Part shown: positions 1,720 through 36,225 of the stretch, in pieces
Numbering within the stretch: position 1 is the first letter of the stretch
How the letters are laid out: every line of letters starts with the position of its first letter
From: Stenotrophobium rhamnosiphilum
GTDB taxonomy: Bacteria; Pseudomonadota; Gammaproteobacteria; Nevskiales; Nevskiaceae
Assembly: GCF_003052265.1 (NCBI RefSeq)
Contig: NZ_QANS01000007.1
Location: 124,001 to 188,000 of the forward strand
Direction: 5' to 3'
Length of the DNA: 64,000 nucleotides
The notes under the pieces: model-generated
What the model saw: only the letters and a program-made list of their open reading frames with translations
Databases searched by the model: none
Told to the model about the DNA's origin: nothing
Translations under genes and position numbers: made by a program

Positions 1720-1721
1720 GC

Positions 1722-1799
1722 CGTCATTCCCGCGCAGGCGGGAATGACAAGCGATGAGTTTTTGTTGGGTGGGTTTCGCTGCGCTCTACCCACCCTACG
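1722..1799. repeat. Two palindromic repeats side by side (ATTCCC type and GGTGGGT type)
   Basis: Bases 1724-1749 form a short palindrome around ATTCCCGCGCAGGCGGGAAT. Bases 1767-1799 are a half copy of the family seen at 41618 and 44291 (GGGTGGGTTTCGCTGCGC, then ACCCACCCTAC). They lie between the convergent sulfotransferase and LVIVD genes and may end transcription from both sides. Confidence 0.85.
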
Positions 1800-1823
1800 G
1801 TTCAGGCGCGGATTTTATCCAAA

Positions 1824-3218: not shown

Positions 3219-3254
3219 GAATTCTCTCCCCCATATTTTTATGCCGTTGTTTAT

Positions 3255-3935
3255 TTAATGCGGCTTTGCTGCCAGTGCATTAATCATTCTCTTAATGAGG
3301 CCAATCTCTTCGGATTGATCCATCGCGATACGGACAGCAAGGTTGCGTACAGCAGGAAGCTTTGACTGCGCCGCGGCGAACTTCGCCATTGGCAAACTGC
3401 CTTCGTGATGTACGAGCATCAGATTTAAAAAAAGCTCGTCGCGCGCACGGCCATCGAGTGTGCGTAGACGATTCATATCTTCACTGGTGGCCAGGCCCAC
3501 CATGCCCGTCTTGGAGTTTTTGCAAGCGAGCAGGTAGCGCGTGAGTTCAGGATCAGGCGCTGTATCGCCAAGTAGCATCCAGTTCATGCTTTGCGATGTG
3601 GACTGCAGCGGTTGTTGCCACAAATTCAACCAGCCGCGCATCTCGCCCATTTCGATCAGCTGACTATTGATGATGGATTTGGCGAGCAGTGGGAGTTGTG
3701 TGGGTCTGCCATCAAGCAGCAGCTGTGACATCCAGATGGCTTGTTGATGATGCGCGTGCATGGACTGTGCAAAGCCAATGTCGATTGCAGTGGCTGTTGT
3801 TGCAGCTTGCGCAGATTTCATCTCGCGCAATTGCTTGTAGGCCACGCCACCGGCAGCGGCGAGCGCCAACACAATGAGGGCTGAGGCGATGATTCGCAGG
3901 GACATAAACGGAGAACGGCTGTTTACATTTGGCAT
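3255..3935 (-). CDS. DUF305 family protein, membrane anchored
   Basis: The protein has one N-terminal hydrophobic segment (IIASALIVLALAAAGGVAY), then a DUF305 (ferritin-like four-helix) domain with the characteristic FAQSMHAHHQQAIWMS near the start and LMLVHHEGSLPMA in the second half, His-rich motifs suited to metal binding. The open frame extends to 4058, overlapping the divergent gene; ATG codons at 3935 and 3905 place the membrane segment close to the N-terminus and are more likely starts. It sits just upstream of the LVIVD gene. Function is unknown; a role in metal handling is inference. Confidence 0.8.
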   Translation of the reverse strand: MPNVNSRSPFMSLRIIASALIVLALAAAGGVAYKQLREMKSAQAATTATAIDIGFAQSMHAHHQQAIWMSQLLLDGRPTQLPLLAKSIINSQLIEMGEMRGWLNLWQQPLQSTSQSMNWMLLGDTAPDPELTRYLLACKNSKTGMVGLATSEDMNRLRTLDGRARDELFLNLMLVHHEGSLPMAKFAAAQSKLPAVRNLAVRIAMDQSEEIGLIKRMINALAAKPH

Positions 3936-4102
3936 CTGTTTTACTTGAAAGCTGTGGATATGCCGCAACGAAGCGGGCGAATGTGCACCTAAGGTCATAA
4001 GCGCGTTCTTATGGGGGTAAGAGGCTGCGAATGACCCTGTTGGAAGCTCGGGGGCCATTTTCCCATTTCTCGGTTGGCGAGACCCCTGTTAAAGTGCCAC
4101 CC

Positions 4103-4852
4103 ATGGGAGAGTTACACAGTACCTTTAAACGGCGGACACATTGGCTTGCTGCACTGCGTGCGGCGGCTTTTGCTGTGCTCGGTGTGATGAGCTTTCAGGC
4201 GCTGGCTGAGCCGCTGACGCTCTATCTTTACAAAGAAAACGGCATGCCCGTTTACTCTGATCGCAAGCCCGCAGCTAACGTCGAATACACCGTGATTCGC
4301 CCCGGTTCTGGTGAGCCACGTTCCTCCGCAGGCATCACGCCGACATCGTTTTCAGATATGTCTGTCACTGCCAATAAAGAAGGCCTGGTGGGTTGGGCCG
4401 CGTCATGCCAAGGCGTGACCAAAGAAGTTTTGGAACAGCGCGCGCAACAATGGCAGGCGATGGTGACCAAGCACGCAAAAGCGCATGGTGTACCGGCTGC
4501 GCTGGTGCGTGCGGTGATGCGTGTTGAGTCCTGCTTCGATCCAAAGGCTGTCTCGCGCGCTGGTGCGCAAGGTTTGATGCAGCTGATGCCAGCAACGGCA
4601 ACACAGATGGGTGTGCGTGACAGCTTTGATGCTGACCAGAATATTGCTGGCGGTGCGCGTTACTTGAGCCATCTACTCGGGCGCTTCAAGAACGATACGC
4701 GTCTTGCAATCGCCGCCTACAACGCTGGCCCTGCGGCTGTCGATTCGTATCGCGGCATTCCGCCATATGCTGAGACTAGAAGCTATGTGCAGCGCGTGAT
4801 CGCGGAGTACCGCGTGAATAGCACGGTTAAAGTGAAGCAATCCAAGAGCTGA
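4103..4852 (+). CDS. Lytic transglycosylase (SLT family) with signal peptide
   Basis: Soluble lytic transglycosylases cleave peptidoglycan to 1,6-anhydro products in the periplasm. The start at 4103 puts a Sec signal (RRTHWLAALRAAAFAVLGVM then ALA-EP) at the N-terminus; the frame is open to 4031 but that part overlaps the divergent DUF305 frame. A short beta-rich segment (LTLYLYKENGMPVYSD, DUF4124-like) precedes the SLT domain. The catalytic Glu is in RAVMRVESCFDP, followed by AGAQGLMQLMPATA and IAAYNAGPAAV, all diagnostic. The protein is 249 residues, short for the family but with a whole catalytic domain. Confidence 0.9.
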   Translation: MGELHSTFKRRTHWLAALRAAAFAVLGVMSFQALAEPLTLYLYKENGMPVYSDRKPAANVEYTVIRPGSGEPRSSAGITPTSFSDMSVTANKEGLVGWAASCQGVTKEVLEQRAQQWQAMVTKHAKAHGVPAALVRAVMRVESCFDPKAVSRAGAQGLMQLMPATATQMGVRDSFDADQNIAGGARYLSHLLGRFKNDTRLAIAAYNAGPAAVDSYRGIPPYAETRSYVQRVIAEYRVNSTVKVKQSKS

Positions 4853-13248: not shown

Positions 13249-15189
13249 TCAGCGCTTGAGACGGTAAGCGACAACGGAGTCACCCGTGGTCGAACCGTAC
13301 ATGGTGTGACCACCTGCAGCGATGACAACGTATTGCTTGCCGCCTTCTTCATAAGTGATCGGCACTGCGGTGCCTGCGGCGGGCAGTGGCGACTGCCACA
13401 ACACTTTGCCGGTCGCGAGATCGAAAGCGCGGATGGCGTTGTCGAGCGTGTAGCCGATGAACACGAGTCCGCCTGCGGTCACGAGCGGGCCACCAGCGCC
13501 TGGCGTGCCGAGGTTGGCGTCGAACAGCGATGCAGGTGGTTTAACCGGCATCATGTTTTCGATGCTGCCGAGTGGCACTTCCCAAACAATTTTCTTCTTC
13601 GCGATATCAACTGCAGTGAGCGTGGCCCATGGTGGTGCTGAGCATGGTGCGCCGAGCGGTGAGAGTAAGGGCTGGATCTGGTAGGCGTAACGTGATCCTT
13701 TCGCGGGGAACATCATCGGTCCGCCGAGTTCAATCGTGTCGCCAGCGCCAGGTGGAACTTTCTCGATCGGTACGAGCGATACGATCGTTGGTACGCGGTT
13801 GGACGGTACAACCATGATGCCGCTCGCCGCATCGTAAGCGCCGCCGCCCCAGTTAGGGCCGCCGCCGACGGAGGGCGAGAAGATCGTGCCCTTCAGGCTT
13901 GGAGGCGTGAAGCTTGGGCCGTAGTTGAGCGCTTCGATTTTGCGTTTGCACAGCCAACGATCAATCGGCGTAAAGCCCCAAGCGTCATCCGGTGAGAAGC
14001 CGTGCTTGACCAGCGTCGGCATGCCGACAGGGAAAGGCTGCGTGGGTGAAAGTACGTCGCCGGCAACAACCCCGGTCTGCGGAACTTTACGTTCTTCAAT
14101 CGGCACCAATGGTTCGCCGGTTGCGCGATTGAAGACGAAGATGAGGCCGGTCTTATTGTTCTGCACCAGCGCAGGCACGGTTGTGCCGTCAGCTTTCTTC
14201 CAATCGATCAACAGCGGCTCAGAAGGTGTGTCGTAGTCGAAGACGTTGTGATGAATGAACTGGAAGTGCCATGCGACCTTGCCGGTCTTGCCATGCAGCG
14301 CAACGATCGACGAGGTGTAGCGATTATCGCCAGCGCGGCCCGCGCCGTAGAAGTCACCCGATGGGCTGGTGGTTGGCAGATAGACGAGGTCGAGTTTGTT
14401 ATCGACAGACATATTTGCCCACACGTTGCCAGCGCCAAAACCTTTGGTGCCATTGGCCCAAGTTTTATACGCAGGATCTTTTTCATCGCGTGGGATCGGA
14501 TCAAACTCCCAGAGGAATTTGCCGGTGCGTGCGTCATAAGCCAATACGCGACCACTCGGCGCGCTGACGCGCTGGTTGTCAGCAACAGCGGAGCCAACAA
14601 CAACAACACCGTTAACGATCGCAGGTCTTGAGCCAGCGACCACTTCGCCCGGCATGATCTGCGGTTCGCTGATTGGCATTTGCACCGAACCTTTCACGCC
14701 AAAGCCTGCACAGGCTTTTCCGTCTTTCGCATCGAAGGCCACCAAGCGATAGCTGGTGGTGCCCATCAGGATGCGTGATTTGCAGTGCGAGCCAGCGGCC
14801 GCTTTTTCATCGACCCAGTGCGAAACGCCGCGGCATTTCTGCATGCCGACTTTGGGATCTTTCGGGTCGAAGATCCAGCGCTGTTTGCCGGTGGCAGGAT
14901 CCAGTGCAATCACACGACGCGTGGTGGTGCAGACCAGAAGATTGCCTTCGATCATTGTTGGCTGATCTTCAAAGGCGATCAGGTTCTTGCCCGCTTTCTT
15001 TGGCGGCGCTTCGCCGGTGTGATACTCCCAAGCCTTTTCGAGCTGCGCCACATTGCTCTTGTTGATCTGCTGGAGCGGCGAGTACTTGGTGCTGAGCTGT
15101 TCTTCCGGGCTGGCTGCGCCCACGCAGAACGTAACGCTTGCGAGCGTTAGCGCCAGAAGCTGGCGGTACATCGGTAGGCGGATGCCCAT
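13249..15189 (-). CDS. PQQ-dependent dehydrogenase with signal peptide
   Basis: A quinoprotein of 646 residues oxidising an alcohol, aldehyde or sugar in the periplasm with PQQ. The start at 15189 follows AGGGGAG; the frame is open to 15219. The signal peptide is MYRQLLALTLASVTFCVGAA. Tryptophan-docking repeats of the eight-bladed propeller are seen (ALDPATGKQRWIFD, YDARTGKFLWEFD, ALHGKTGKVAWHFQ, FDLATGKVLWQSPLP), with NMMPVKPPASLFDANLGTP and GGLVFIG typical of the soluble/membrane glucose-dehydrogenase-like group. No cytochrome c CxxCH motif is present. The gene continues the minus-strand run after XdhC but is separated from it by a 160-bp gap with a repeat. Confidence 0.88.
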   Translation of the reverse strand: MGIRLPMYRQLLALTLASVTFCVGAASPEEQLSTKYSPLQQINKSNVAQLEKAWEYHTGEAPPKKAGKNLIAFEDQPTMIEGNLLVCTTTRRVIALDPATGKQRWIFDPKDPKVGMQKCRGVSHWVDEKAAAGSHCKSRILMGTTSYRLVAFDAKDGKACAGFGVKGSVQMPISEPQIMPGEVVAGSRPAIVNGVVVVGSAVADNQRVSAPSGRVLAYDARTGKFLWEFDPIPRDEKDPAYKTWANGTKGFGAGNVWANMSVDNKLDLVYLPTTSPSGDFYGAGRAGDNRYTSSIVALHGKTGKVAWHFQFIHHNVFDYDTPSEPLLIDWKKADGTTVPALVQNNKTGLIFVFNRATGEPLVPIEERKVPQTGVVAGDVLSPTQPFPVGMPTLVKHGFSPDDAWGFTPIDRWLCKRKIEALNYGPSFTPPSLKGTIFSPSVGGGPNWGGGAYDAASGIMVVPSNRVPTIVSLVPIEKVPPGAGDTIELGGPMMFPAKGSRYAYQIQPLLSPLGAPCSAPPWATLTAVDIAKKKIVWEVPLGSIENMMPVKPPASLFDANLGTPGAGGPLVTAGGLVFIGYTLDNAIRAFDLATGKVLWQSPLPAAGTAVPITYEEGGKQYVVIAAGGHTMYGSTTGDSVVAYRLKR

Positions 15190-15227
15190 GAAGCGATCTC
15201 CCCTTGTTACTTTGGTCATTGGTCTTT

Positions 15228-15351: not shown

Positions 15352-16443
15352 TTAATGAATCGGCCCAGCGCCGTAACTCAAGCGCTCACCCTTACGTCCG
15401 TAAACCGCGCCCTGGATTTCAGCCGCGATCGATAAAGCAATTTCTTCTGGCGTCTCTGAACCGATGTCGAGACCGGCGGGCGCGCATAAAGGTGTACGTG
15501 TGGCGCCAATCGCACTGCGCATTTTCTCTGCGCGAGTGCGTGAACCCACGGCGCCTAAGTAGAGCAGTGGCTGAGAGCGCAAGATGTGCAGGTATTCGAG
15601 ATCGCGTTCGAGGTTGTGTGTCATTACTAGTACGGCAGTGCGCGTATCGAAGCGGAGAAGTTTCTCCATCTTCGCTGCATTAGCGCACAAGAGACTAGCG
15701 CCTGGCGGAATCGCTGAAACAGGTGTGTCGTCGCGATGATCAATCAGTTGCACACTCCAGCCCAGACCGCGCGCCATATTTGCGAGCGCAATAGTTGTCG
15801 TGTTGATGCCGATCAGTACGAGACGGATTGGCGCTTCCAGTTTTTCGACGAGTACTTGTATGCGGCCGTCGCTGGTGCTGACTTCATCAAGACGTGCCGC
15901 ATTGCTGGTCGTGCCTGAGAGTGCTTGTGACAAAACGGCATCGGCGTTGCGAGGATTATTCAGTTCATCAAGAACCAAACGTTCGCTCCACAGCAAGCGA
16001 CGTGGTTGTGGCATGCAACGACCTTCAGCCGCGAAGACCGTCATCAACGTTCCTTGCGTGCGTGTTTGCAAGCAGTGTGCTGCGGCATCAGCAAAGCGCA
16101 GGTCATCGGCGCTCTTCAATGGCTCCAGCAGCACTTCCATTTCACCGCCGCAGCCGAGTTCCATCAATGCGTCGTAGCCATGTTCACGATCGTATTGCAG
16201 CAGTTTGGCTTCGCCAGCAATGATGACTTCGCGTGCGCGCTCAACAATATCTGCTTCAGGACAGCCAGCCGAGATGCCGCGAACGATGCGGCCATCACCA
16301 TGCACGAGCATGCGCGTGCCTGCACGACGGAACACGGAGCCATTGGTGCGCACCAGCGTTGCCAGTGCAGCGCCGCCCGCAAAGCCGCTGCTCTTGAGCT
16401 CATCAAGACCTGCAACAAGATCGGCGAATTCGTGCGAGCTCAT
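15352..16443 (-). CDS. XdhC/CoxI family molybdenum-enzyme maturation protein
   Basis: A 363-residue XdhC protein. The N-terminal XdhC/CoxI domain includes GGAALATLVRTNGSVFRRAG and ISAGCPEADIVERAREVI; the C-terminal Rossmann domain includes LVLIGINTTTIALANMARGL and YLGAVGSRTRAEK, then GLDIGSETPEEIALSIAAEI. XdhC proteins bind molybdenum cofactor and help insert the sulfurated form into hydroxylases. It starts 3 bp after the stop of the large subunit, so it belongs to the same operon. Confidence 0.92.
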   Translation of the reverse strand: MSSHEFADLVAGLDELKSSGFAGGAALATLVRTNGSVFRRAGTRMLVHGDGRIVRGISAGCPEADIVERAREVIIAGEAKLLQYDREHGYDALMELGCGGEMEVLLEPLKSADDLRFADAAAHCLQTRTQGTLMTVFAAEGRCMPQPRRLLWSERLVLDELNNPRNADAVLSQALSGTTSNAARLDEVSTSDGRIQVLVEKLEAPIRLVLIGINTTTIALANMARGLGWSVQLIDHRDDTPVSAIPPGASLLCANAAKMEKLLRFDTRTAVLVMTHNLERDLEYLHILRSQPLLYLGAVGSRTRAEKMRSAIGATRTPLCAPAGLDIGSETPEEIALSIAAEIQGAVYGRKGERLSYGAGPIH

Positions 16444-16446
16444 GGT

Positions 16447-19200
16447 TTATGGAATGCGTTCGCCAACAAGCTTGGCGGTGCCGAAGATACCCATCTTGCA
16501 CTTGCCGAGCAGCTTGTCGCCGTCGATATGTGCTTCGTACTTCAGCGTAATCTTCATCGGCTTGGTTACTTTCAGATCCCACACGAGGTGGTTGCCTTTG
16601 AAGGTGCCGGTGAAGTGCGCCTCGTCCATGTTCATGATGAACACGCCGGTGAGGTTGTTGCCGTCGGTGCTCATACGGCCGGTGAAGGCTTGTGGGCCGA
16701 GTGGCGTCGAGAGCACGAACTTCCAGTTGCCGTCGATCTGCACTGCAGCAGGTGCTGCGATCTGTTCTTGCGGCGCTGATGGCGAGAACACGTTTTGCAC
16801 AGGTGCCACTGTTGGCGTCGTGGCAACAGTTGGTTCTGGTACAGGTGCAACGACAGGCTTAGCGTGCTCGGCAATCTCGGGGCGGCCTTCTATGTGCGCC
16901 AGCAAGCGCGTCGGCGTCATCGGGAATTCAAGTTTGATTTCGCCGAACGGTGCGAGCGCATCAGCAATCGCGTTAACCAATGTTGGAGGGCCGACGATGC
17001 AGCCGCCTTCACCCACGCCACGGAATCCGCCATCTGCCTTCGAAGGCATTGAGGCGTCGTGGTTGTATTCGAAGGTAGGCACGTCAAAGATTGTTGGCAG
17101 CATGTAATCCTTGTACGTCACTGCCGTTGGATTACCGCGTGCGTCGAAGGACACCTGTTCCATCAAGACGCTGCCAATGCCTTGCGCGAGACCACCTGCG
17201 ATCTGGCCTTCAACAACGGAAGGATTGATCATCACGCCGCAGTCTTCGCTCGATACCCAGCGCTTGATCTTGACGAAGCCGGTGTCTGCATCCACTTCAA
17301 CGATGCAGGCATGCGCCGCACTGGTCATTGTGATGGGTGGTGGACGATAGCGGAACTGTACTTCTAGGCCAGCTTCCATGCCTTCAGGCAAACGCTCGGG
17401 TTCGCCGTAAGCGATGTCCGCGAGATCGCGCAGCGTCACGCTCTGTGGTTTGTCGCCAGAGACCGTGATGATGCCTTCGCGCATCGAAATATTTTCTGGC
17501 GTGGTGTTGAGCAGATGCGCGGCTGCTTTCTTGATCTTGTCGACCAGTAACTTGGCTGCACCGATGCATGCACCGCCGCCTGCGACTGCCTGACGGCTGC
17601 CATACGCACCTGAGCCATAGCCTCCGCGTGAGCTGTCGTCTTCATGGATGCTGACGTCATCAAATTTAACGCCGAGTGTTTCAGCAACCACCTGCGCCAT
17701 CGTCGTCTGCGTGCCGTGGCCTTGTGAATGCGTTGAGACGACTGCACTAATCTTGCCGGTAGGCTCGATACGAATGTGTGCGGACTCGCTGATGAGCACG
17801 GCGATGCCGGTGCTGCCTGCGGTTGGCTCGATATACGTTGCAATGCCAAGGCCAAGATACCGGCCCTGTTTGCGTGCTTCAGCTTGCTCGATGCGGAAGG
17901 CAGTGACATCAACTTTCGTCAGCAGCACATCAAGACATTCAGCTGGGCTGATGTCTTCCAGTTCCAATCCCATATTGGTGGTGCAGGGCTGATCTTCTCG
18001 TCTAAGCAGAGTGCGCTTGCGCAGTTCAACCGCGTCGATGCCAAGCTTGCGTGCAGCGCGATCCAGCAGGACTTCGCGCGTCAGCGACTCAATTGCCCAC
18101 GGGCCACGATAAGCCGAGAGACCCACTGTATTTGTGAACCAGCCACGCGAATAGAAATCGAACTTCGGCAGCTTGTGCGCGCCCCAGATAAACATCATCA
18201 CCGCGATGTTGCTGTCTGCGCCTTGCGGATACGCACCGTTGTTGATGCTGTATTCGGCGTGGGAGGCGATGAGATTGCCTTCTTTGTCGAACGCGGCGCG
18301 CAGTTTGATTTCCTGTTCGCGGGCCTGACAGGCGGAGGTGAGGTTTTCGAGACGGTCTTCAATCCACTTCAGCGGACGCTTGAGTAGCATTGATGCAAGC
18401 ACCGTTGCGACTTCTTCACGCCAAGGCTGACCCTTCAGGCCGAATGAACCGCCGACATCTTTGGAGATGACGCGGATTGAGGTCTGCGGCATGCCGAAGG
18501 CCTGCGCGAACCAACGTGCATTCAACTGCGGACCTTGGCAGGAGAGATAGATCGTGAGTTCTTCCGCGCCTTGCGGAGCAGAGACCACGCCACGCGTTTC
18601 CATCGGCGACTGCGCGATGCGTTGGTGCTTGAACTCAACGGTTTCCAGATGTGGCGCGTTGTTGAGTAGTGCTTCGAGTTCTTCGTCTGGATCTTCGGTG
18701 CCGGTTGCGGCAGCGATGTTGGAATCTGTTTGTGGATGGACGAGTGCGCCAGTCTTGGCTTCGTCCATCGTCACCACCGGATCTTCTTCGTCGTAGACGA
18801 CGGTGATAAGACCTGCAGCGTCTTCAGCAATGTAACGATCTTCTGCGATGATAATCGCGATGGGATCACCAACGTAACGTACGCAGTCGATTGCCAGCAC
18901 CGGCACTGGTACGACTGGCGCGGCGAGGAAGAAGCTCAGCATGTCGACTTTGTAGCGCGCCAAATCAGCGGCGATCAGCACGGCATGAACGCCGGGCAGT
19001 TGCTTGGCGACAGACAGATCAATCGATTTGATGTTGCCGCGTGCAATCGGGCTGCGATGGAAGGCGACGTGCAACATGCCGGCCACGCTGACGTCATCAA
19101 CGTAAACACCTTTGCCGGTCAGCAGGCGCGCATCTTCTTTGCGTGGAACACGTTGGCCGATGTAGACGCCCGGTGCTGCTGGAGTTTCAGTCGCACTCAT
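16447..19200 (-). CDS. Molybdopterin-binding large subunit (xanthine dehydrogenase/CoxL family) with C-terminal extension
   Basis: The start at 19200 forms an ATGA overlap with the 2Fe-2S subunit; product 917 residues. The N-terminal a/b hammerhead domain begins GQRVPRKEDARLLTGKG; Mo-cofactor motifs include QGHGTQTTMAQVVAETLG, and the catalytic Glu is E731 in GVGEGGC. The active-site loop at 363-368 reads AYRGPW, neither AYRCSFR (form I CODH) nor AYRGAGR (form II), so CO is unlikely as substrate; hydroxylation of an aromatic, aldehyde or CoA-linked substrate is more likely. From about residue 780 a Pro/Ala/Thr linker leads to a 96-residue beta-rich domain (822-917, about 16450-16737) that also occurs at the end of the alpha/beta hydrolase at 22977-24080. 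Confidence 0.93.
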   Translation of the reverse strand: MSATETPAAPGVYIGQRVPRKEDARLLTGKGVYVDDVSVAGMLHVAFHRSPIARGNIKSIDLSVAKQLPGVHAVLIAADLARYKVDMLSFFLAAPVVPVPVLAIDCVRYVGDPIAIIIAEDRYIAEDAAGLITVVYDEEDPVVTMDEAKTGALVHPQTDSNIAAATGTEDPDEELEALLNNAPHLETVEFKHQRIAQSPMETRGVVSAPQGAEELTIYLSCQGPQLNARWFAQAFGMPQTSIRVISKDVGGSFGLKGQPWREEVATVLASMLLKRPLKWIEDRLENLTSACQAREQEIKLRAAFDKEGNLIASHAEYSINNGAYPQGADSNIAVMMFIWGAHKLPKFDFYSRGWFTNTVGLSAYRGPWAIESLTREVLLDRAARKLGIDAVELRKRTLLRREDQPCTTNMGLELEDISPAECLDVLLTKVDVTAFRIEQAEARKQGRYLGLGIATYIEPTAGSTGIAVLISESAHIRIEPTGKISAVVSTHSQGHGTQTTMAQVVAETLGVKFDDVSIHEDDSSRGGYGSGAYGSRQAVAGGGACIGAAKLLVDKIKKAAAHLLNTTPENISMREGIITVSGDKPQSVTLRDLADIAYGEPERLPEGMEAGLEVQFRYRPPPITMTSAAHACIVEVDADTGFVKIKRWVSSEDCGVMINPSVVEGQIAGGLAQGIGSVLMEQVSFDARGNPTAVTYKDYMLPTIFDVPTFEYNHDASMPSKADGGFRGVGEGGCIVGPPTLVNAIADALAPFGEIKLEFPMTPTRLLAHIEGRPEIAEHAKPVVAPVPEPTVATTPTVAPVQNVFSPSAPQEQIAAPAAVQIDGNWKFVLSTPLGPQAFTGRMSTDGNNLTGVFIMNMDEAHFTGTFKGNHLVWDLKVTKPMKITLKYEAHIDGDKLLGKCKMGIFGTAKLVGERIP

Positions 19201-19670
19201 GCGGCATCTCCGCCGAGTTTCATCGCCGCACGCTTGATGCCTTGATAGCCGGTGCAGCGACAGATGTGTCCGGACATGGCCTGAACGAGCGTGTCGCCGC
19301 TGGGTTTGTTGGCGCAGTTGGTCAATGCAGTGAGCGTCATCACGATGCCTGGCGTGCAGAAACCACATTGCAGCGCGCACTCATCTTTCATCGCTTGCTG
19401 CACGGGATGCAGCGTGCCGTCATCAGCTGCAAGGCCCTCGACGGTGGTGATCTTGCTGCCATCCGCTTGCACCGCAAGCATCAAGCATGAACGCACAGCA
19501 TTACCGTCAACGATGACCGTGCATGCGCCGCAGACGCCGTGTTCGCAGCCCACATGAACGCCGGTGTAACCAGCATCGCCACGAAGGAAATCACTGAGCG
19601 TTAAACGGCCTTCGACTGTCGAGCAGTGTGGGCGGCCGTTGATGGTGAGATTAATTTGGTGCTGGCTCAT
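19197..19670 (-). CDS. 2Fe-2S subunit of molybdenum hydroxylase (CoxS type)
   Basis: A 157-residue electron-transfer subunit with two 2Fe-2S clusters. The plant-ferredoxin-type cluster uses C42, C47, C50 and C62 (GCEHGVCGACTV). The second cluster uses C102, C105, C137 and C139 (QCGFCTPG and ICRCTGYQ). Length is standard. The stop overlaps the start of the large subunit. It is transcribed after the FAD subunit across a 136-bp gap that holds a palindromic repeat. Confidence 0.95.
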   Translation of the reverse strand: MSQHQINLTINGRPHCSTVEGRLTLSDFLRGDAGYTGVHVGCEHGVCGACTVIVDGNAVRSCLMLAVQADGSKITTVEGLAADDGTLHPVQQAMKDECALQCGFCTPGIVMTLTALTNCANKPSGDTLVQAMSGHICRCTGYQGIKRAAMKLGGDAA

Positions 19671-19687
19671 GCGTTTGTCTCTTGTCT

Positions 19688-19781
19688 CCCTCTCCCCACG
19701 GACGTGGGGAGAGGGGCGGGGTGAGGGACTGTTTGAAAGAGGCCCCTCACCCTGGCCCTCTCCCCGCAGGCGGGGAGAGGG
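19688..19781. repeat. CCCTCTCCCC / GGGGAGAGGG repeat inside the hydroxylase operon
   Basis: Two hairpins (CCCTCTCCCCACGGACGTGG with GGAGAGGG; CCCTCTCCCCGCAGGCGGGG with AGAGGG) flank GGCGGGGTGAGGG and GCCCCTCACCC arms. Copies lie at 21689, 39373 and 42971. Here it separates the FAD and 2Fe-2S subunit genes and could alter mRNA stability or subunit ratio. Confidence 0.88.
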
Positions 19782-19806
19782 AACTGCAGATTCTGGTGGC
19801 GTGCAT

Positions 19807-20676
19807 TCATGCGGCAGCCCTCAAATTCAAGGTCTCGCTTAAAGCACTTGCAAAGACACGCTTGCCAACCGTGCGACGATATTCGGCGCTGGCGTGGTGA
19901 TCATCGAATGGCGCGGTATCGGCAATCGCAAGTTCTGCGAGTGCGCGTGGATCCAGCGTGTTGATGGATTGACCGAGTAACGCTGCTTCAACCTGTCGTG
20001 CTTTGATTGGCGTTGGGCCCATGCCAAACCAGGCAATGCCTGCGCGTTCGATGCGCCCGTCTTTTACGGTGAGTGCGCCGGTCAAACCGACGAGTCCAAA
20101 ATCACCGGGGCGCTGTGAAATTTCGCGGAACATCCAGACGGTGCCGCTCTGCCACTCAGGCACATGGATGCCAGTGAGTAGCTCATCCGGTTCCAGCGCT
20201 GTGGCGTAGGGCCCGAAATAAAATTCTTCTGCAGCAATGCGGCGCGTGCCGCGTGTTGACGTCAGTTCAAGCGAGGCGCCGAGTGCAACTGAAGTTGCAG
20301 GCAATTCTGCTGCGGGTTCGCCAAGCGCAATCGATCCACCAATGGTGCCGCGATTGCGCGTCTGATGATGACCAACGTGACGTGTTGCGGTGACGATCAG
20401 TGGCTGCGCTTGTGCGAGCGTTGGATCGGCAATGGCTTCGTTCTGACGCAGGATCGGACCGATGCGCGTAATGCCTGCGTTGCGCGTTACGCCTTTGAGG
20501 GCGGCGATGCGCGTGATGTCGATCAGGATAAAAGGCTGACTCATGCGTAGTGCGAGCAGCGGCATTAGCGTTTGACCGCCAGCAAGTATCGTTGCGCCAC
20601 CGCCAGCTTCACTCAGCAGCTGGCAGGCTTCGGCGATCGACGACGGTGCCAAGTAGTCGAACGGTGCCGGTTTCAC
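19807..20676 (-). CDS. FAD-binding subunit of molybdenum hydroxylase (CoxM type)
   Basis: A 289-residue FAD subunit. The FAD motifs are ATILAGGQTLMPLLALRM near residue 30-47 and TRNRGTIGGSIALGEPAAELP near 106-126; CO-dehydrogenase flavoproteins carry the same two. The start is GTG (20674-20676) and forms a GTGA overlap with the CoxG gene upstream. It passes electrons from the 2Fe-2S clusters to an acceptor. Confidence 0.93.
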   Translation of the reverse strand: MKPAPFDYLAPSSIAEACQLLSEAGGGATILAGGQTLMPLLALRMSQPFILIDITRIAALKGVTRNAGITRIGPILRQNEAIADPTLAQAQPLIVTATRHVGHHQTRNRGTIGGSIALGEPAAELPATSVALGASLELTSTRGTRRIAAEEFYFGPYATALEPDELLTGIHVPEWQSGTVWMFREISQRPGDFGLVGLTGALTVKDGRIERAGIAWFGMGPTPIKARQVEAALLGQSINTLDPRALAELAIADTAPFDDHHASAEYRRTVGKRVFASALSETLNLRAAA

Positions 20677-21410
20677 CGCTTGCCCTCCAACAGACGTGCA
20701 AGCAGGTCGGCGTCGAGTGTGATGTTGGTGGTGCCGGAGCGGCGGCCGAATTCAAAGCCTGCAGCGCCGACAATCAACAGCAGCGTGCCGATCGCAATGC
20801 CCATCCAATCCGAATGTTCTGCGCTGCCGCTGTGGCCGACGAGATAGCCGACGAGTGAAGCGACAACCAATGTGAGCAGCCAAACGATTGGCGAACCGCT
20901 TGCTGCCGATGCCGTACCAGTGGCGCGCGTGCCGCGTGCTTTTGCGGCGCCTGCTGCGACGGGCTCTGGTCCGGCGATGACTTTGCCGAACTGACCAAAG
21001 AAGCGCGCAGCCAATTGTTTGGCAGTGGCGTCCATGATCGGACCGCCGAGTTGTGCAAGGCGACCACTGACAAGCGCATCGACGTCGTACGACAAAATGG
21101 TGATGCCTTCGCCGCCGTCTGAGAGTTTTACTTTGGCAATGCTTTTAACCGAACCCACCGTGCCGCCCTGACCTTCGATGGTCATGGTGTAAGAGTCTGG
21201 TGCGTTGATGTCGGACAGCTCGACGGTGCCGTTGAAGCGTGCGCCGATAGGTCCGATCTTGATCTCAACTGTCGCGACTAATCGCGTGTCAGATTCTTTG
21301 GCGAGTGACTGGCAGCCGGGAATGCAGCGCTTGAGCACTTCGGGATCGTTCAACGCTTCCCAGACCTGCTGTCGCGTTGCGGAAATCTGCTGCTGTCCGT
21401 TCATCTGCAT
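20673..21410 (-). CDS. CoxG-like SRPBCC protein with C-terminal membrane anchor
   Basis: First gene of the hydroxylase operon. The SRPBCC (START-like) domain covers residues 1-150: ATRQQVWEALNDPEVLKRCI, PGCQSL, and the CoxG motif LGGPIMDATAKQLAARFFGQ. After an Ala/Pro linker come hydrophobic segments near 179-196 (IVWLLTLVVASLVGYLVG) and 204-220 (WMGIAIGTLLLIVGAAGF). CoxG is known to anchor CO dehydrogenase to the membrane and link it to quinone. By analogy this protein would tether the hydroxylase to the respiratory chain. Confidence 0.9.
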   Translation of the reverse strand: MQMNGQQQISATRQQVWEALNDPEVLKRCIPGCQSLAKESDTRLVATVEIKIGPIGARFNGTVELSDINAPDSYTMTIEGQGGTVGSVKSIAKVKLSDGGEGITILSYDVDALVSGRLAQLGGPIMDATAKQLAARFFGQFGKVIAGPEPVAAGAAKARGTRATGTASAASGSPIVWLLTLVVASLVGYLVGHSGSAEHSDWMGIAIGTLLLIVGAAGFEFGRRSGTTNITLDADLLARLLEGKR

Positions 21411-21688
21411 GATTCGATATCTCTGCGAATAATCTATTGGGCGGTAATGCGGGCCTGCTCGTGCAGGCGCTAGTCGTTGTTATGGTTCCAATCTCATTGT
21501 CCATGACCTCCGCCATGGAGTCCCGTCTGGTGTTGCCGCGATAGGCAGGCACTCTTGTCCTACCGGGAACTTCGCATTGTGGCGACCATGGAGCGCTTCC
21601 TAAGCTACGGTGCGGAAACTGCGTTTACATCCTGCTTACGCAGTAGCGGAGCTGGGAGTGCATCCCTAGAGGCGCGATATCTCTGACT

Positions 21689-21799
21689 CCCTCTCCCTAC
21701 GAATGTGGGGAGAGGGCTGGGGTGAGGGGTGGTTGGAAAGGGCGCGCCGTTTGCGAATAGCCCCTCACCCTGACCCTCTCCCCGCAAGCGGGGAGAGGG
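21689..21799. repeat. CCCTCTCCC / GGGGAGAGGG paired repeat
   Basis: Same family as 19688-19781, with both hairpins, the GGGTGAGGGG and CCCCTCACCC arms and a middle GCGCGCC. It lies between the divergent CoxG and aldo-keto reductase genes. Confidence 0.88.
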
Positions 21800-21829
21800 A
21801 AACAAGCAAGTTTAAGGAAATGAATATCC

Positions 21830-22882
21830 ATGCAGCTTGATGACTACCGCCTGCTAGGCCGCTCAGGCCTCAGAGTTTCTCCGCTGGCGCTAGGCACCAT
21901 GACCTTCGGCGTGCAGCAGTCATGGGGTTGCGACGCCGCTGAAGCTGAAAAAATCTTAGGCCTTTATGCCGAGAGCGGCGGCAATTCAATCGACACTGCT
22001 AACTTCTACGCCAATGGTGAATCCGAGCGCGTGGTTGGCAAGCTGGTGCGTAATCGACGTAACCGTTTCGTCATCGCCACCAAGTATTCCCTGACGATGA
22101 GCCCGGGCGATCCGAATGCCTGCGGCAATCATCGCAAGAACATGATGCAGTCGGTCGAAGAAAGTTTGCGACGGTTGGAGACGGATCACATTGACCTGTT
22201 GTATCTGCACGCTTGGGATGCGCGCACACCCGTCGAGGAAATCTTGCGCGCCTTCGACGATCTGGTTCGCTCGGGCAAGGTTCAATACATCGGTCTCTCC
22301 AACACGCCCGCATGGCAGGCGTCGCGTATGCAGGCGATTGCTGAACTGCGTGGTTGGAGTCCGCTGGTTGCGCTGCAAATTTCGTATAGCTTGGCGGAAC
22401 GTAGCGGCGAGCGCGACCTGCTGCCAATGGCACGTGAAATGGGCTTGGGCGTTTTGCCGTGGTCGCCATTGGCTGGAGGCGTGCTCTCTGGAAAATACCA
22501 ACAGAAAGATTTGACCTCGGGCGCTGAGCCCAGCAAAGCCAGTGCGCGCAAGGACATGAATGTTTCGAGCGGTCGCCTGAGTGATCACAGTCTTGTTATC
22601 GCGGACGCGGTGAGAAAAGTTGCAGAGGAAATGAACTGCAGCTCAGCGCAGGTTGCGTTGGCTTGGACGCTGCTGAATCCGGCAGTTGCATCGCCCGTTC
22701 TTGGCATTCGCACGCTCGCGCAACTCCAAGATAATCTCGGTGCGCTAGACGTTAATTTCAGGGCCGATCAAATTGCGCAGTTGGATGCAGCAAGCAAGAT
22801 TGACCTAGGCGTTCCACACACCATGCTCGCCTCCGATGTCATGAGCAAAATGTTCGGTGGCGTAAAAGTCGCAAAGAGATAA
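21830..22882 (+). CDS. Aldo/keto reductase
   Basis: A 350-residue (beta/alpha)8 NADPH-dependent oxidoreductase. The catalytic tetrad is visible as Asp in SIDTANFYANGESE with the Tyr following, Lys in VIATKYSLT, and His in LLYLHAWD. The NADPH-binding end reads SPVLGIRTLAQLQDNLGAL. It resembles the large AKR11/13-like bacterial group with broad carbonyl specificity. TTTAAGGAAATGAATATCC supplies the Shine-Dalgarno. It is followed by a repeat and then the alpha/beta hydrolase on the same strand. Confidence 0.93.
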   Translation: MQLDDYRLLGRSGLRVSPLALGTMTFGVQQSWGCDAAEAEKILGLYAESGGNSIDTANFYANGESERVVGKLVRNRRNRFVIATKYSLTMSPGDPNACGNHRKNMMQSVEESLRRLETDHIDLLYLHAWDARTPVEEILRAFDDLVRSGKVQYIGLSNTPAWQASRMQAIAELRGWSPLVALQISYSLAERSGERDLLPMAREMGLGVLPWSPLAGGVLSGKYQQKDLTSGAEPSKASARKDMNVSSGRLSDHSLVIADAVRKVAEEMNCSSAQVALAWTLLNPAVASPVLGIRTLAQLQDNLGALDVNFRADQIAQLDAASKIDLGVPHTMLASDVMSKMFGGVKVAKR

Positions 22883-22883
22883 A

Positions 22884-22965
22884 CGTAGGCTGGGTAGAGC
22901 GAAGCGAAACCCAGCATCTATCAGGTAATAAAAATGCTGGGTTGATAAAGCCAACCCAGCCTACG
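22884..22965. repeat. CGTAGGCTGGGT / ACCCAGCCTACG inverted repeat
   Basis: CGTAGGCTGGGTAGAGCGAA and AACCCAGCCTACG arms, with inner AACCCAGC/GCTGGGTT. It is a variant of the GGTGGGT family and starts right after the reductase stop. Confidence 0.85.
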
Positions 22966-22976
22966 GGGCAGGAATC

Positions 22977-24080
22977 ATGGCGACATACATGTTGGTACAT
23001 GGTGGTGGGCACGGTGGCTGGTGCTATCAATTTGTCGCAAAGATCCTCAGGTCGCATGGCCATGAGGTGTACACGCCAACAATGACCGGTGTTGGCGAGC
23101 GCGAGCATCTGCTCAGTCCGGCGGTCGACATGAATCTGCAGATCACTGACATCGTTAAGGCGATTGAATTCGAAGACCTGCGTGACCTCATTCTTGTTGG
23201 TCACAGCTACGGCGGCATGATCATTACAGGTGTTGCCGATCAAGTGGGTGATCGCATCGCCAATCTGGTTTATCTCGATGCTGCGTATCCAGAAAACGGA
23301 CAGTCACTGGTCGATCATGCTGGCGAGATCATGCTCGCAGCGCGTCAGACCGCGAGGATCGTCAACGGCATTGAACTCATCCTCTTCCCCGGCGATGACC
23401 CGTTGAGTTACTTCGGGGTGACTGAGCCCGATCAGATTGAATGGATGAAGCCCAAGCTCACACCACACCCTTGGAAATGCTTCGACCAGAAACTGGTGCT
23501 GAAGAACGAAGCAGCAGTTCGGAAAATTCCGCAGTCCTTTATTTCATGCAGCTATCGCATGGACGATGACTCCCGCGAAAAGCAAAAGACGCTCTCAGAG
23601 GGACGCTATTGGGAGATTGATACAGGGCATGATCTGATGATTTCAGAGCCGCAGTGGACTGCGGACGCATTAATGGAACTCGCTGGATTGATTGGAAAGG
23701 GAACGGCTACTGTCCCTCATGCTCGACCGACACTTGCACCGGTAGTTGCGCAACCGGCACCGAGTGTGAGTACTGGTCCGGCCACGCTCGAAGGAAAATG
23801 GGCGTTGAAAATGAAGGGTCCCGCAGGACCTGTCGCGGGCACAACAATTTTCGAATCGATCAATGGCGCACTATCCGGAACTCAATCATTCGGACCGGCA
23901 ATGACCAAGCCCATTACTGAAGTCAAAGTAGATGGCGACACGATCATCTGGATCAGCCATATCGACAAGCCGATCAAGATGAAGCTTGAGTTCACCGCTC
24001 AACGCAACGGCGGCGAGATGACTGGAAAGGTGAAGGCTGGTTTTGTCGGAACTTATTCCTTCACCGGAAGAAAAGAATAA
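22977..24080 (+). CDS. Alpha/beta hydrolase with C-terminal beta-rich extension
   Basis: Residues 1-235 are an alpha/beta hydrolase of the MenH/plant esterase-like type: oxyanion motif LVHGGGHGGWCY, nucleophile S77 in VGHSYGGM, acid near the strand-6 region and His in DTGHDLMIS. The start has AGGA in front and follows a repeat. After a Pro/Ala/Thr linker (HARPTLAPVVAQPAPSVSTG) comes a 97-residue domain at 271-367 (23787-24077) beginning LEGKWALKMKGPAGP and containing KPIKMKLEFTA. The same domain ends the molybdenum hydroxylase large subunit. The substrate is unknown; carriage of the same extension suggests a common location or ligand (inference). Confidence 0.88.
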   Translation: MATYMLVHGGGHGGWCYQFVAKILRSHGHEVYTPTMTGVGEREHLLSPAVDMNLQITDIVKAIEFEDLRDLILVGHSYGGMIITGVADQVGDRIANLVYLDAAYPENGQSLVDHAGEIMLAARQTARIVNGIELILFPGDDPLSYFGVTEPDQIEWMKPKLTPHPWKCFDQKLVLKNEAAVRKIPQSFISCSYRMDDDSREKQKTLSEGRYWEIDTGHDLMISEPQWTADALMELAGLIGKGTATVPHARPTLAPVVAQPAPSVSTGPATLEGKWALKMKGPAGPVAGTTIFESINGALSGTQSFGPAMTKPITEVKVDGDTIIWISHIDKPIKMKLEFTAQRNGGEMTGKVKAGFVGTYSFTGRKE

Positions 24081-24083
24081 AAA

Positions 24084-24147
24084 GTAGCCCGGGTGAAACC
24101 CGGGGCTTTTAATTGCAGCAAAAAATCCCGGGTTGCACCCGGGCTAC
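24084..24147. repeat. GTAGCCCGGGTGAAACCCGG inverted repeat
   Basis: Arms GTAGCCCGGGTGAAACCCGG and its near complement ending CCCGGGCTAC enclose an AT-rich middle. It lies between convergent genes and overlaps the stop codon of the dihydrodipicolinate-reductase-like gene (24144-24146). Copies: 36231, 46562 and a half copy at 28008. Confidence 0.88.
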
Positions 24148-25193
24148 GCTGGGCGCACGAGTCCGCGTGGTTGTACAACACCCAACTCAATATGAGTGAG
24201 CACGCCGGGTTTGGCATCGCACACAGCCGGAACAGCGGTGGCACCAAGCAGACCTGTCCAAGGCAGGCCGTGGAACGGTCTGCGTCCATCAGACTCAACG
24301 CCGCCCATCAGTCGCAGTTCCAACGGTGGATCACCGTGAATCACGGCGCGGTAGCAGCTATCGCCGTTGTCCCATTTGGGTTCGACGTTGTCGCCCATCG
24401 TCCAGTAGAAGTGATACACGATCAGTGGCGCGCCTTCGCACCAGCCAGTCCATTCGTAGTGCTGACCAGCAACGGTTCCTTTCTTGATGACGCCGTTGGG
24501 GTAGGGGATATCTTCGGTTGCTGCAGAGACTTCGAGTCTCGTCGTCACCTTCTCGATTTTTTTGCCGAGCCCTTCTGCAAGCGTGTTCATTGATTGCTGG
24601 AAGTGGCGTGGCGCTTCTGGCGAGCGGCTTGGTTTGGCGAGCAATTCAGCCGGATCACGACCGAAGCCCATCACCTCGACATAGATCATCGGGTTTCTAA
24701 GCTTGTCGATCACTTCAATGATTTCGATGCGATCAATACGATTCATCAAACGCGTCAATGTGAGTGGCAGAATGTCTCCCGAGAAACCTGGATGGATGCC
24801 GCAGCCGTGATACGAAGTTCCACCTTCGCGGCAGGCGGCATCAATCTTGTCGAATGCTTCGGCAAACCATTCGTTCGGCAGGAAAGGACCTGCGGGTGAC
24901 ACCACGTTCTTGCCGGAGCGCAGCAGACGACAAACCATGTCGACGTCTTGTCTCTGCGGCGAGAACAGCACGCAGTCAGCATTAAGCGCGATGATCTTTT
25001 CGACATCATTCGTTGCGATCACGCCGGTGGCGGGAAGGCCAACGAGTTCGCCTGCATCCTTGCCCACTTTCTCTGGATTGGTGACGTAGACGCCAACCAG
25101 TTCAATCACCGGGTTCTCAATGAAATGCTTGAGCGCGGTTTTTCCGACTACGCCAGTAGCCCATTGGATCACGCGATATTTTTTCTGCGACAT
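24144..25193 (-). CDS. Dihydrodipicolinate-reductase-like NAD(P)-dependent oxidoreductase
   Basis: A 349-residue protein with an N-terminal Rossmann domain: YRVIQWATGVVGKTALKHFI, with VGVYVTNPEKVGKDAGEL as the second strand, then VLFSPQRQDVD and SGKNVVSPAGPF. This matches the DapB-N-like family often annotated in Actinobacteria and Gammaproteobacteria as dihydrodipicolinate reductase or 2,4-diaminopentanoate dehydrogenase-like. True DapB is shorter (about 270), so a lysine pathway role is unlikely. The gene starts 18 bp after the SDR stop, forming a two-gene operon. The last codons fall inside a palindromic repeat. Confidence 0.82.
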   Translation of the reverse strand: MSQKKYRVIQWATGVVGKTALKHFIENPVIELVGVYVTNPEKVGKDAGELVGLPATGVIATNDVEKIIALNADCVLFSPQRQDVDMVCRLLRSGKNVVSPAGPFLPNEWFAEAFDKIDAACREGGTSYHGCGIHPGFSGDILPLTLTRLMNRIDRIEIIEVIDKLRNPMIYVEVMGFGRDPAELLAKPSRSPEAPRHFQQSMNTLAEGLGKKIEKVTTRLEVSAATEDIPYPNGVIKKGTVAGQHYEWTGWCEGAPLIVYHFYWTMGDNVEPKWDNGDSCYRAVIHGDPPLELRLMGGVESDGRRPFHGLPWTGLLGATAVPAVCDAKPGVLTHIELGVVQPRGLVRPA

Positions 25194-34977: not shown

Positions 34978-36225
34978 ATGACGCAAGTAGCACTGACACC
35001 TGCAGTTCCTAAACCAGATCACGTCGTCGATTCGGTGGTCTACGACTTCGATATGTTTGGCGATCCAGGCCTGCTGGCTGATCCGCACGTGCGCATCATG
35101 GATTTAGTGAAGAACGCACCGTCGGTATTCTGGACGCCACGTAACGGTGGTCACTGGATGCTGACCAGCCACGCTGCAAACTTCAACGCCTCACGCGATA
35201 CCGAAACTTTCTCTAGCCAATTTATTCCGCCAGAAAAGCTCGCGATGTTGAAGGCGATGATGCCGCCGGGTTCGCCGCATATCCCGATTGCTGTGCCGAT
35301 CAATCTTGATCCGCCGGATCATGGCAAGTACCGCATGCCCTTGCAGCGTGTGTTCTCGCCTAAGGCGATTGAGATGCTGCGTGAAGACATCCGCACGCTG
35401 GCCCGCGAGCTGCTCAATAAGGTGAAAGCCGATGGCGGCTGCGAATTTGTTGCAGCAGTGGCAGAACCTCTGCCGGTGCAGGTTTTCCTGAAAATGCTCG
35501 GCTTGCCGTTGGAGCGTTCAGACGAATACCGCGAACTCGTGCGCGCCCATCTGGCCGATTCAAATCTTGATCCGCGCAAGATGATCATGAAGATGCAGCG
35601 CGTCGCTGCCAGCATGCGTGACACCATGCTCGAGCGTAAGGAAAATCCGCAGAACGATATTCTCAGCATGCTGTGGAAGATCGAAGTCGACGGCAAGCCG
35701 ACCACGCTTGAAGATATGGAGAACTACGGCGTGTTGTTGTTCATCGCCGGTCTCGATACCGTCATTAACGGCATGGGCCTGGGCGTGCGTCACCTCGCAC
35801 AGCATCCGGAACTACAAGCGCAGTTGCGCAATAATCCAGCCCTCGCCAGCGATGTGACGGAAGAGATGCTGCGCCGCTACACCTTCACCGTGCCGCCACG
35901 CATCATGGCCAAAGACGTTGACTTCATGGGCGTGCAGCTGAAGAAGGGCGACAAGGTCATGCTCTATCTGCCTGCTGCCGATCTCGATGCGAAGGAATAC
36001 AGCAATCCTGATCAGTTCAACCTGAAACGCGAAGGCACACCACACATCGCCTTCAACGCCGGCCCACATCGCTGCCTCGGCTCACATCTGGCACGTGTCG
36101 AACTGCAAGTGCTCTACGAAGAAATGGTGAAGATCATTCCAGAGTTCCGTCTTGATCCAGCAAAGCCAGCGGTGTTCCATGGTGGGCATGTGGTTGGTAT
36201 TCACAGTGTGAATCTGCTCTGGTAA
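34978..36225 (+). CDS. Cytochrome P450
   Basis: A 415-residue soluble bacterial P450. The heme-thiolate Cys is C366 in FNAGPHRCLGSHLARVEL; the I-helix carries FIAGLDTVINGMG with the Thr used for O2 activation; the ExxR motif is in EEMLRRYT, and NLDPPDHGKYRMPLQRVFSP is typical of the class. It hydroxylates a hydrophobic substrate using a ferredoxin and reductase that are not in this operon. It starts 23 bp after the hydratase with TTGGAG as Shine-Dalgarno, and is the last gene of the operon. Confidence 0.93.
   Translation: MTQVALTPAVPKPDHVVDSVVYDFDMFGDPGLLADPHVRIMDLVKNAPSVFWTPRNGGHWMLTSHAANFNASRDTETFSSQFIPPEKLAMLKAMMPPGSPHIPIAVPINLDPPDHGKYRMPLQRVFSPKAIEMLREDIRTLARELLNKVKADGGCEFVAAVAEPLPVQVFLKMLGLPLERSDEYRELVRAHLADSNLDPRKMIMKMQRVAASMRDTMLERKENPQNDILSMLWKIEVDGKPTTLEDMENYGVLLFIAGLDTVINGMGLGVRHLAQHPELQAQLRNNPALASDVTEEMLRRYTFTVPPRIMAKDVDFMGVQLKKGDKVMLYLPAADLDAKEYSNPDQFNLKREGTPHIAFNAGPHRCLGSHLARVELQVLYEEMVKIIPEFRLDPAKPAVFHGGHVVGIHSVNLLW

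Follow-up and report, generated by a model that had tools for sequence, protein, structure and literature searches.

A C-terminal domain shared by a molybdenum hydroxylase and an alpha/beta hydrolase of Stenotrophobium rhamnosiphilum, with a predicted barrel fold and a mobile distribution among enzymes of catabolic islands

In a 64,000-nucleotide stretch of the Stenotrophobium rhamnosiphilum genome (the window; positions 124,001 to 188,000 of contig NZ_QANS01000007.1), the large subunit of a molybdenum hydroxylase and an alpha/beta hydrolase are confirmed to end in homologous domains of ~97 residues, here labeled DX. The large subunit, a member of the carbon monoxide (CO) dehydrogenase/xanthine oxidase family, is encoded on the reverse strand at 16447..19200 (Ald_Xan_dh_C, MoCoBD_1 and MoCoBD_2 in Pfam); it has 917 amino acids (aa) counted from the ATG at 19200, while the full open reading frame (ORF; 16447-19380) has 977. 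The 367-aa hydrolase lies on the forward strand at 22977..24080 (Abhydrolase_6, E 2.5e-18). DX copy 1 spans residues 820-916 of the large subunit (16453..16743, reverse strand) and copy 2 spans residues 269-367 of the hydrolase (23781..24077, forward strand), positions that agree with those proposed by a first-pass annotation made from the DNA letters. The same annotation described a linker of Pro, Ala and Thr in front of each domain, and both are present in the translations: a Pro/Ala/Thr-rich segment at 16744..16902 (reverse strand), delimited by the end of the family profile and by low ortholog identity, and a Pro/Ala-rich segment at 23694..23780 (forward strand), read from the translation.

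Three comparisons bear out the claim of one domain on two enzymes. BLASTP of the large-subunit end against the hydrolase end gave 43.9 bits (E 4e-12) at 27% identity over 96 positions, and the Smith-Waterman score between the two copies was 108, when the highest of 5000 shuffles was 51. A hidden Markov model (HMM) was built solely from standalone DX proteins, taken from 18 genomes that belong to the phylum but not to the organism's own class, with neither window copy included. When it was run against the 486 stop-to-stop ORFs of at least 60 aa in the window (reporting limit E 1), only two were matched, the large-subunit domain at E 1.9e-23 and that of the hydrolase at 1.5e-19. Chance similarity of the two ends is ruled out by these results.

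Neither parent family was expected to end in this way, and that expectation holds. The CO-dehydrogenase large-subunit profile stops at residue 826 of the 977-aa ORF, and the orthologous molybdenum hydroxylase of genome G008, 73% identical, has a clean stop before linker and DX. For the hydrolase, five homologs from a search of 61 genomes (35-41% identity) match the hydrolase part only, a DX search of those five genomes was negative, and the hydrolase-DX fusion was seen only in the organism's own genome. Within the molybdenum-hydroxylase ortholog group, however, the extension is common, with nine places in the organism's own family.

As a sequence family, DX is well marked. In a weighted alignment of 71 rows, G5 (100%), G16, G33 and G80 are nearly or fully invariant, P14, W55, P62 and G75 each exceed 90%, position 7 is W in 81% and Y in 17%, and position 96 is R in 76% and K in 19%. 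Could this be a known family under another name? Scans of six DX members gave no acceptable match in Pfam, where the search ran to E 10 with program filters that remove most matches above 0.1 (best 0.019, to Glu2-Pro, in one member), or in NCBIfam (best 0.0049, to grasp_GAK, in one member), and no sequence in the Protein Data Bank (PDB) matched DX at E 10. This candidate explanation was rejected, and DX is a genuine accessory domain that the curated libraries searched here lack. Literature searches aimed at DX or at such fusions, covering mainly papers outside subscription, found no earlier description; PMC5018878 describes a cytochrome P450 (P450) in fusion with a peroxidase/dioxygenase domain rather than with DX.

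The AlphaFold2 model of DX, computed from four sequences, contains eight consecutive strands (mean predicted local distance difference test, pLDDT, 90.5; predicted TM-score, pTM, 0.77), and we predict an eight-stranded avidin/calycin-like barrel. The lipocalin-like barrel suggested in the first-pass annotation is supported, as a fold class, by this prediction. A model of copy 2 from its single sequence had low confidence (pLDDT 68.5) and returned the same kinds of top folds (best Z 11.4). With VIA-align, the DX model matched designed beta barrels at Z 14.2, Cap15 at Z 13.2 and avidins at Z 11.9-13.7, the latter including the eight-stranded barrel of streptavidin 4jnj (Z 13.7, root-mean-square deviation (rmsd) 1.4 over 89 residues), in which GxW lies at strand 1 as it does in DX. 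A further match is the barrel of the quinohemoprotein amine dehydrogenase alpha subunit (1jmx_A 179-281; Z 13.8, rmsd 2.0, 93 residues), an accessory barrel inside a redox enzyme that we take to be Qn_am_d_aII (PF14930). Because no Foldseek match reached E 0.001 (best 1.3e-3), the kinship of fold rests on the VIA-align Z scores and is not homology.

Much of that Foldseek list (E 1e-3 to 1e-2) consists of calycins, the fatty-acid, retinoid and bile-acid binding proteins, which differ from the 97-residue DX in having 123-141 residues, reach TM-scores to the query of 0.54-0.69, have no match at E 0.001 or better and have no sequence relation to DX that could be found. The calycin motif consists of GxW near the start of strand 1 and an Arg/Lys in the last strand, and DX carries both elements in G5, W7 and R96 at the frequencies given above. 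For avidins, no match to Pfam Avidin (PF01382) appeared in the six DX members up to E 10, the Avidin model had no match in the organism's own genome, and in the DX-bearing genomes G095 and G234 its matches lay at other places. An hhalign comparison of the 71-row alignment with avidin rows was weak (probability 21%, E 0.001 for a single comparison, 40 columns). Qn_am_d_aII likewise had no Pfam match in the six members and none in the organism's own genome, and hhalign gave a probability of 1.9% (E 0.025, 27 columns) against a template of only four rows. The predicted fold is of a known kind; membership of a named family is not established.

How closely is DX tied to the enzymes beside it? The strongest sign that it serves its neighbor is that the same pair occurs in fused and separate forms. 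One P450 ortholog is fused to DX at two loci, as a 558-aa protein in the organism's own genome and a 567-aa protein in G1119, and is followed by DX as the next gene at five, in G027, G1113 and G1122 and twice in G1116; the P450 parts of this set are 75-82% identical to the G027 protein. The G027 P450 ends at a stop codon of its own, and the separate 105-aa DX of that genome begins at its own ATG 45 bp downstream of that stop; between this genome and S. rhamnosiphilum the P450 part is 78% and DX 61% identical. A DJ-1/PfpI protein is fused to DX on plasmids of Paenibacillus and Sulfitobacter and directly followed by DX in Streptomyces, and in Novosphingobium a standalone DX precedes a P450 gene.

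More broadly, DX is a mobile domain that has repeatedly been attached to different enzymes and is also kept as a separate protein. It was found in 12 of 58 genomes of the organism's own family (42 places), in 8 of 61 in a set of relatives (23 places), in 33 of 397 in a sample of the phylum, in 17 of 385 from the class of G084 and in 5 of 60 relatives of G228; in the organism's own class it occurred in 1 of 274, the genome studied here. DX is missing from most near relatives too. Nine plasmid records carry it, Streptomyces and Paenibacillus among them, the searches in other phyla having covered plasmids only. A phage origin was considered and rejected, with nothing in viral contigs (four scans with single proteins) or in phage records (one query).

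The 42 places in the family were sorted by carrier. At several of the loci analyzed (among others L065, L077, L082, L091 and L092, and likewise L101, L105, L107, L231, L233, L235 and L237), stop-to-stop frames were used in place of gene calls. DX is fused to a P450 at 14 of them, the identity of the P450 coming from Pfam for six and from BLASTP to Pfam-checked P450s (55-79% identity) for the other eight, and to a molybdenum hydroxylase at nine, in nine genomes (three Pfam-checked, the remainder by BLASTP at 59-77%). One place each falls to Abhydrolase_6 (in the window), Abhydrolase_3 and a DAP_DH_C oxidoreductase. At four places, plus one truncated copy (L095), DX is N-terminal on a protein that neither Pfam nor NCBIfam names. 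As a separate gene it directly follows one type of P450 at five places and a P450 plus ferredoxin at one, it is otherwise standalone at four (the start of the G033 copy being assumed), and one place is a fragment. Outside the family, two P450-DX fusions occur in G048, a genome of the same taxonomic order.

Several smaller observations concern these carriers. At L089, L098, L100, L233 and L237, an N-terminal DX is followed by ~650 aa that have no Pfam or NCBIfam name in the scanned rows, except for a terminal PKD at L089. A remnant of a P450-type DX at 5268-5531 of L102 suggests loss of a P450-DX gene in G019. SelA/DgaE-like pyridoxal phosphate enzymes (L077-L082; Pfam/NCBIfam identity seen for L077, L078 and L080 only) have a C-terminal tail that weakly resembles DX (E 3e-6 to 2e-9) and are possibly a further type of fusion. 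Weak tails of this kind also occur on an FGE-sulfatase protein (L083) and in a YqaJ protein (L076), and neither the tree nor the fusion count includes any of these proteins.

A domain found twice in one locus might have been copied from one gene to the other. The phylogeny was computed from 71 rows matched at E 1e-10 or better, from which duplicates, rows of fewer than 85 residues and the fragment L102 had been dropped and outside of which the later-fetched clusters L224-L246 lie. In this tree the hydrolase copy, a long branch, groups with P450 copies (97/89), and the molybdenum-hydroxylase copies form a clade of their own (100/100). The approximately unbiased (AU) test, applied to a pair that had been named before the tree was built, rejected placing both window copies in a single clade (p 1.4e-5) and also a clade joining the hydrolase copy with the molybdenum-hydroxylase copies (p 0.004). 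Recent duplication between the two window genes is ruled out by tree and test, with the hydrolase row on a long branch, and the different lineages indicate two separate captures rather than one duplication.

Where do the carriers lie? The first-pass annotation had asked whether they cluster; they do, and the clustering is stronger among relatives than it is in the window. G1113 holds six copies within 158 kb of one 195-kb contig, a cluster that uniform placement on 5.6 Mb never reproduced in a million simulations; this genome was chosen after the table was seen, so that the simulation does not stand as a test of all genomes. Of 26 chosen window proteins, 16 match the six G1113 stretches with an E value no higher than 1e-40, and for 12 of these the identity is 61-78%; such matches indicate that the two islands are the same kind of catabolic cluster. 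They include the pyrroloquinoline quinone (PQQ) dehydrogenase (69%, beside the molybdenum hydroxylase with DX), the molybdenum-hydroxylase body (70%), two acyl-CoA dehydrogenases (65 and 78%), two CoA-transferase-type proteins (71%) and the aldo/keto reductase (69%), whose G1113 counterpart is two genes from a P450-DX. A remote G1113 homolog (33%) of the window's diaminopimelate (DAP)-dehydrogenase-like protein carries DX itself. Clustering is weaker elsewhere, with four copies as two close pairs in the organism's own genome, two groups of three in G1119 and six copies over four contigs in G1122. These data bear on the hypothesis that DX merely aids folding, solubility or stability of its partner, fused or in trans and without a ligand. 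Fusion by way of flexible linkers to a range of unrelated enzymes, a separate DX gene at some loci and the close molybdenum hydroxylase without DX in G008 would all suit such a role. However, six copies share one 158-kb island and two enzyme types hold 23 of the 42 family places, and since a general stabilizer is not expected to favor one pathway, we consider this explanation improbable.

We favor, at a probability of roughly 0.4, the hypothesis that DX is a cup in which a hydrophobic compound of the pathway is bound near the partner's active site, and that enzymes of one route captured it separately. The barrel interior would be conserved, and its open end would bear TPxG, TxPM and KxGxxG loops; the bound compound would be held close to the active site for hand-over, with a separate DX protein acting in trans and a fused one in cis through its flexible linker. 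Different enzymes of the route may have captured DX separately because all meet the same kind of molecule. Consistent with this, most of the named carriers belong to enzyme families whose substrates are small organic molecules, and the order P450, PQQ dehydrogenase, molybdenum hydroxylase and CoA ligase suggests, from what is known of these families, a stepwise oxidation of one carbon. The observations that support the hypothesis are homology, mobility, the fused and separate pairs, clustering in islands, and drift of the linkers against conservation of the domain. Among six molybdenum-hydroxylase orthologs, identity is 74-86% in the bodies, 19-55% in the linkers and 60-87% in DX; among five P450-DX proteins the corresponding ranges are 76-92%, 57-83% and 70-97%.

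The residues conserved within DX are distributed in keeping with a cup. Entropy is below 1.5 at 10 of 36 inward strand positions and at 0 of 36 outward ones, and three of the four loops that follow strands 1, 3, 5 and 7 hold the conserved TPxG, TxPM and KxGxxG. On a meander topology like that of the matched folds, these four loops would lie together at one end of the barrel, and we infer a cup with a conserved mouth. A number of points weigh against the ligand-binding hypothesis. The facing of the strand positions was taken from hydrophobic alternation, not from coordinates, and the inner conservation is largely of Gly and Trp, which fold stability alone could explain. The ratio of nonsynonymous to synonymous substitution rates (dN/dS) is 0.14-0.81 in DX versus 0.05-0.45 in the enzyme bodies, so that DX is constrained, but less than the enzymes, and the G008 enzyme exists without DX. 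Two genomic contexts are left unexplained by it: in 10 of 27 standalone loci examined, DX adjoins a gene for an M16 (pitrilysin-type) peptidase of ~950 aa, and at three loci of one genus (L070, L072 and L073) it lies by phosphatidylserine decarboxylase and synthase-like genes, identified with Pfam for L072 and read from sequence for the others. The neighbor counts in this work come partly from tblastn to one checked protein and partly from reading. The M16-adjoining loci are L065, L085, L109, L110, L111, L112, L115, L116, L117 and L120, with peptidases 46-64% identical to the Pfam-checked L109, and a Sphingomonas plasmid in the tree suggests that they are sphingomonad-like.

An alternative hypothesis, raised in the first-pass annotation for the two window enzymes, is that DX is a docking module by which a carrier attaches to other carriers, to a standalone DX or to some common partner, so that a metabolon forms. 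Avidin-type barrels are oligomers, so homotypic contacts are conceivable. The clustering of carriers in one island speaks for docking, as do the finding that all four genomes with a DX-bearing molybdenum hydroxylase in the 61-genome set of relatives also hold a P450-DX, the service of the same enzyme by a fused or separate DX, and the conserved loops predicted at one end of the barrel. Nevertheless, none of the 36 outward strand positions is conserved, as faces are assigned by hydrophobic alternation, the two window copies belong to different lineages (AU p 1.4e-5), and a common partner would need to be widespread, given DX on DJ-1/PfpI in Paenibacillus and standalone DX in many other bacteria. 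Docking is the main rival to ligand binding, possible and nearly as likely.

The molybdenum-hydroxylase operon already contains another small accessory protein, CoxG (PF06240), which occurs as a separate gene or as a C-terminal fusion and in that respect resembles DX. The two differ in sequence, with no COXG match in the six DX members or in the window large subunit, and both are present in the same operon. A separate CoxG gene lies beside the DX-bearing molybdenum hydroxylase in the window and in 10 of 10 other loci examined (two duplicates). In G058, one frame (L156, ORF 1498-4503) encodes a large subunit with a C-terminal CoxG domain (MoCoBD plus COXG) that is 32% identical to the window large subunit, which shows that this subunit can acquire accessory modules at the end where it carries DX in the window. 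DX could by analogy be an adaptor that brings its enzyme to the membrane or to a quinone: PMC11962113 describes two archaeal CoxG-like proteins that recruit G3PDH, or anchor a dehydrogenase, to the membrane, and the G058 fusion joins CoxG at the very end where DX is found. Such a role would be doubled by the separate CoxG gene at all of these loci, however, and the alpha/beta hydrolase and DJ-1 carriers need no quinone, which makes an adaptor very improbable.

A more general and rather doubtful formulation, compatible with substrate carriage or with assembly, is that DX is a pathway tag, separately joined to the P450s, molybdenum hydroxylase, esterase-type hydrolases and oxidoreductase of a single catabolic island and also present as a free subunit. 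The present work delimits a domain that the curated libraries searched do not contain and whose fold is predicted with confidence, and it allows a test of whether the enzymes of one degradative route are marked by bacteria with a shared barrel for carriage or docking. A natural experiment is provided by the same P450 with DX fused (two loci) or as the next gene (five loci) and by the molybdenum hydroxylase with and without DX. For biocatalysis with P450s and molybdenum hydroxylases, DX may offer a small portable module.

The two window carriers are surrounded by genes of the same island. On the reverse strand lie the [2Fe-2S] small subunit (19197..19670; Fer2_2, Fer2) and the medium subunit that binds flavin adenine dinucleotide (19807..20676; FAD_binding_5, CO_deh_flav_C) of the molybdenum hydroxylase, the CoxG-like protein with hydrophobic C-terminal stretches (20673..21410; COXG 2.8e-34), an XdhC/CoxI-type maturation factor (15352..16443; XdhC_C, XdhC_CoxI) and the PQQ-dependent dehydrogenase (13249..15219; PQQ beta-propeller 4e-215). 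The aldo/keto reductase (21830..22882, forward strand; Pfam) is located between the two DX carriers, and the DAP-dehydrogenase-like oxidoreductase (24144..25193, reverse strand; Pfam), here without DX, is the tail-to-tail neighbor of the hydrolase gene. A P450 without DX (34978..36225, forward strand) is 47% identical to a DX-bearing P450 elsewhere in the same genome. The window large subunit is the sole match to MoCoBD_2 at E 0.001 in the whole genome. Its active-site loop reads AYRGPW; the loop is AYRCSFR in CO dehydrogenase and AYRGAGR in form II, and the window enzyme is probably not a CO dehydrogenase.

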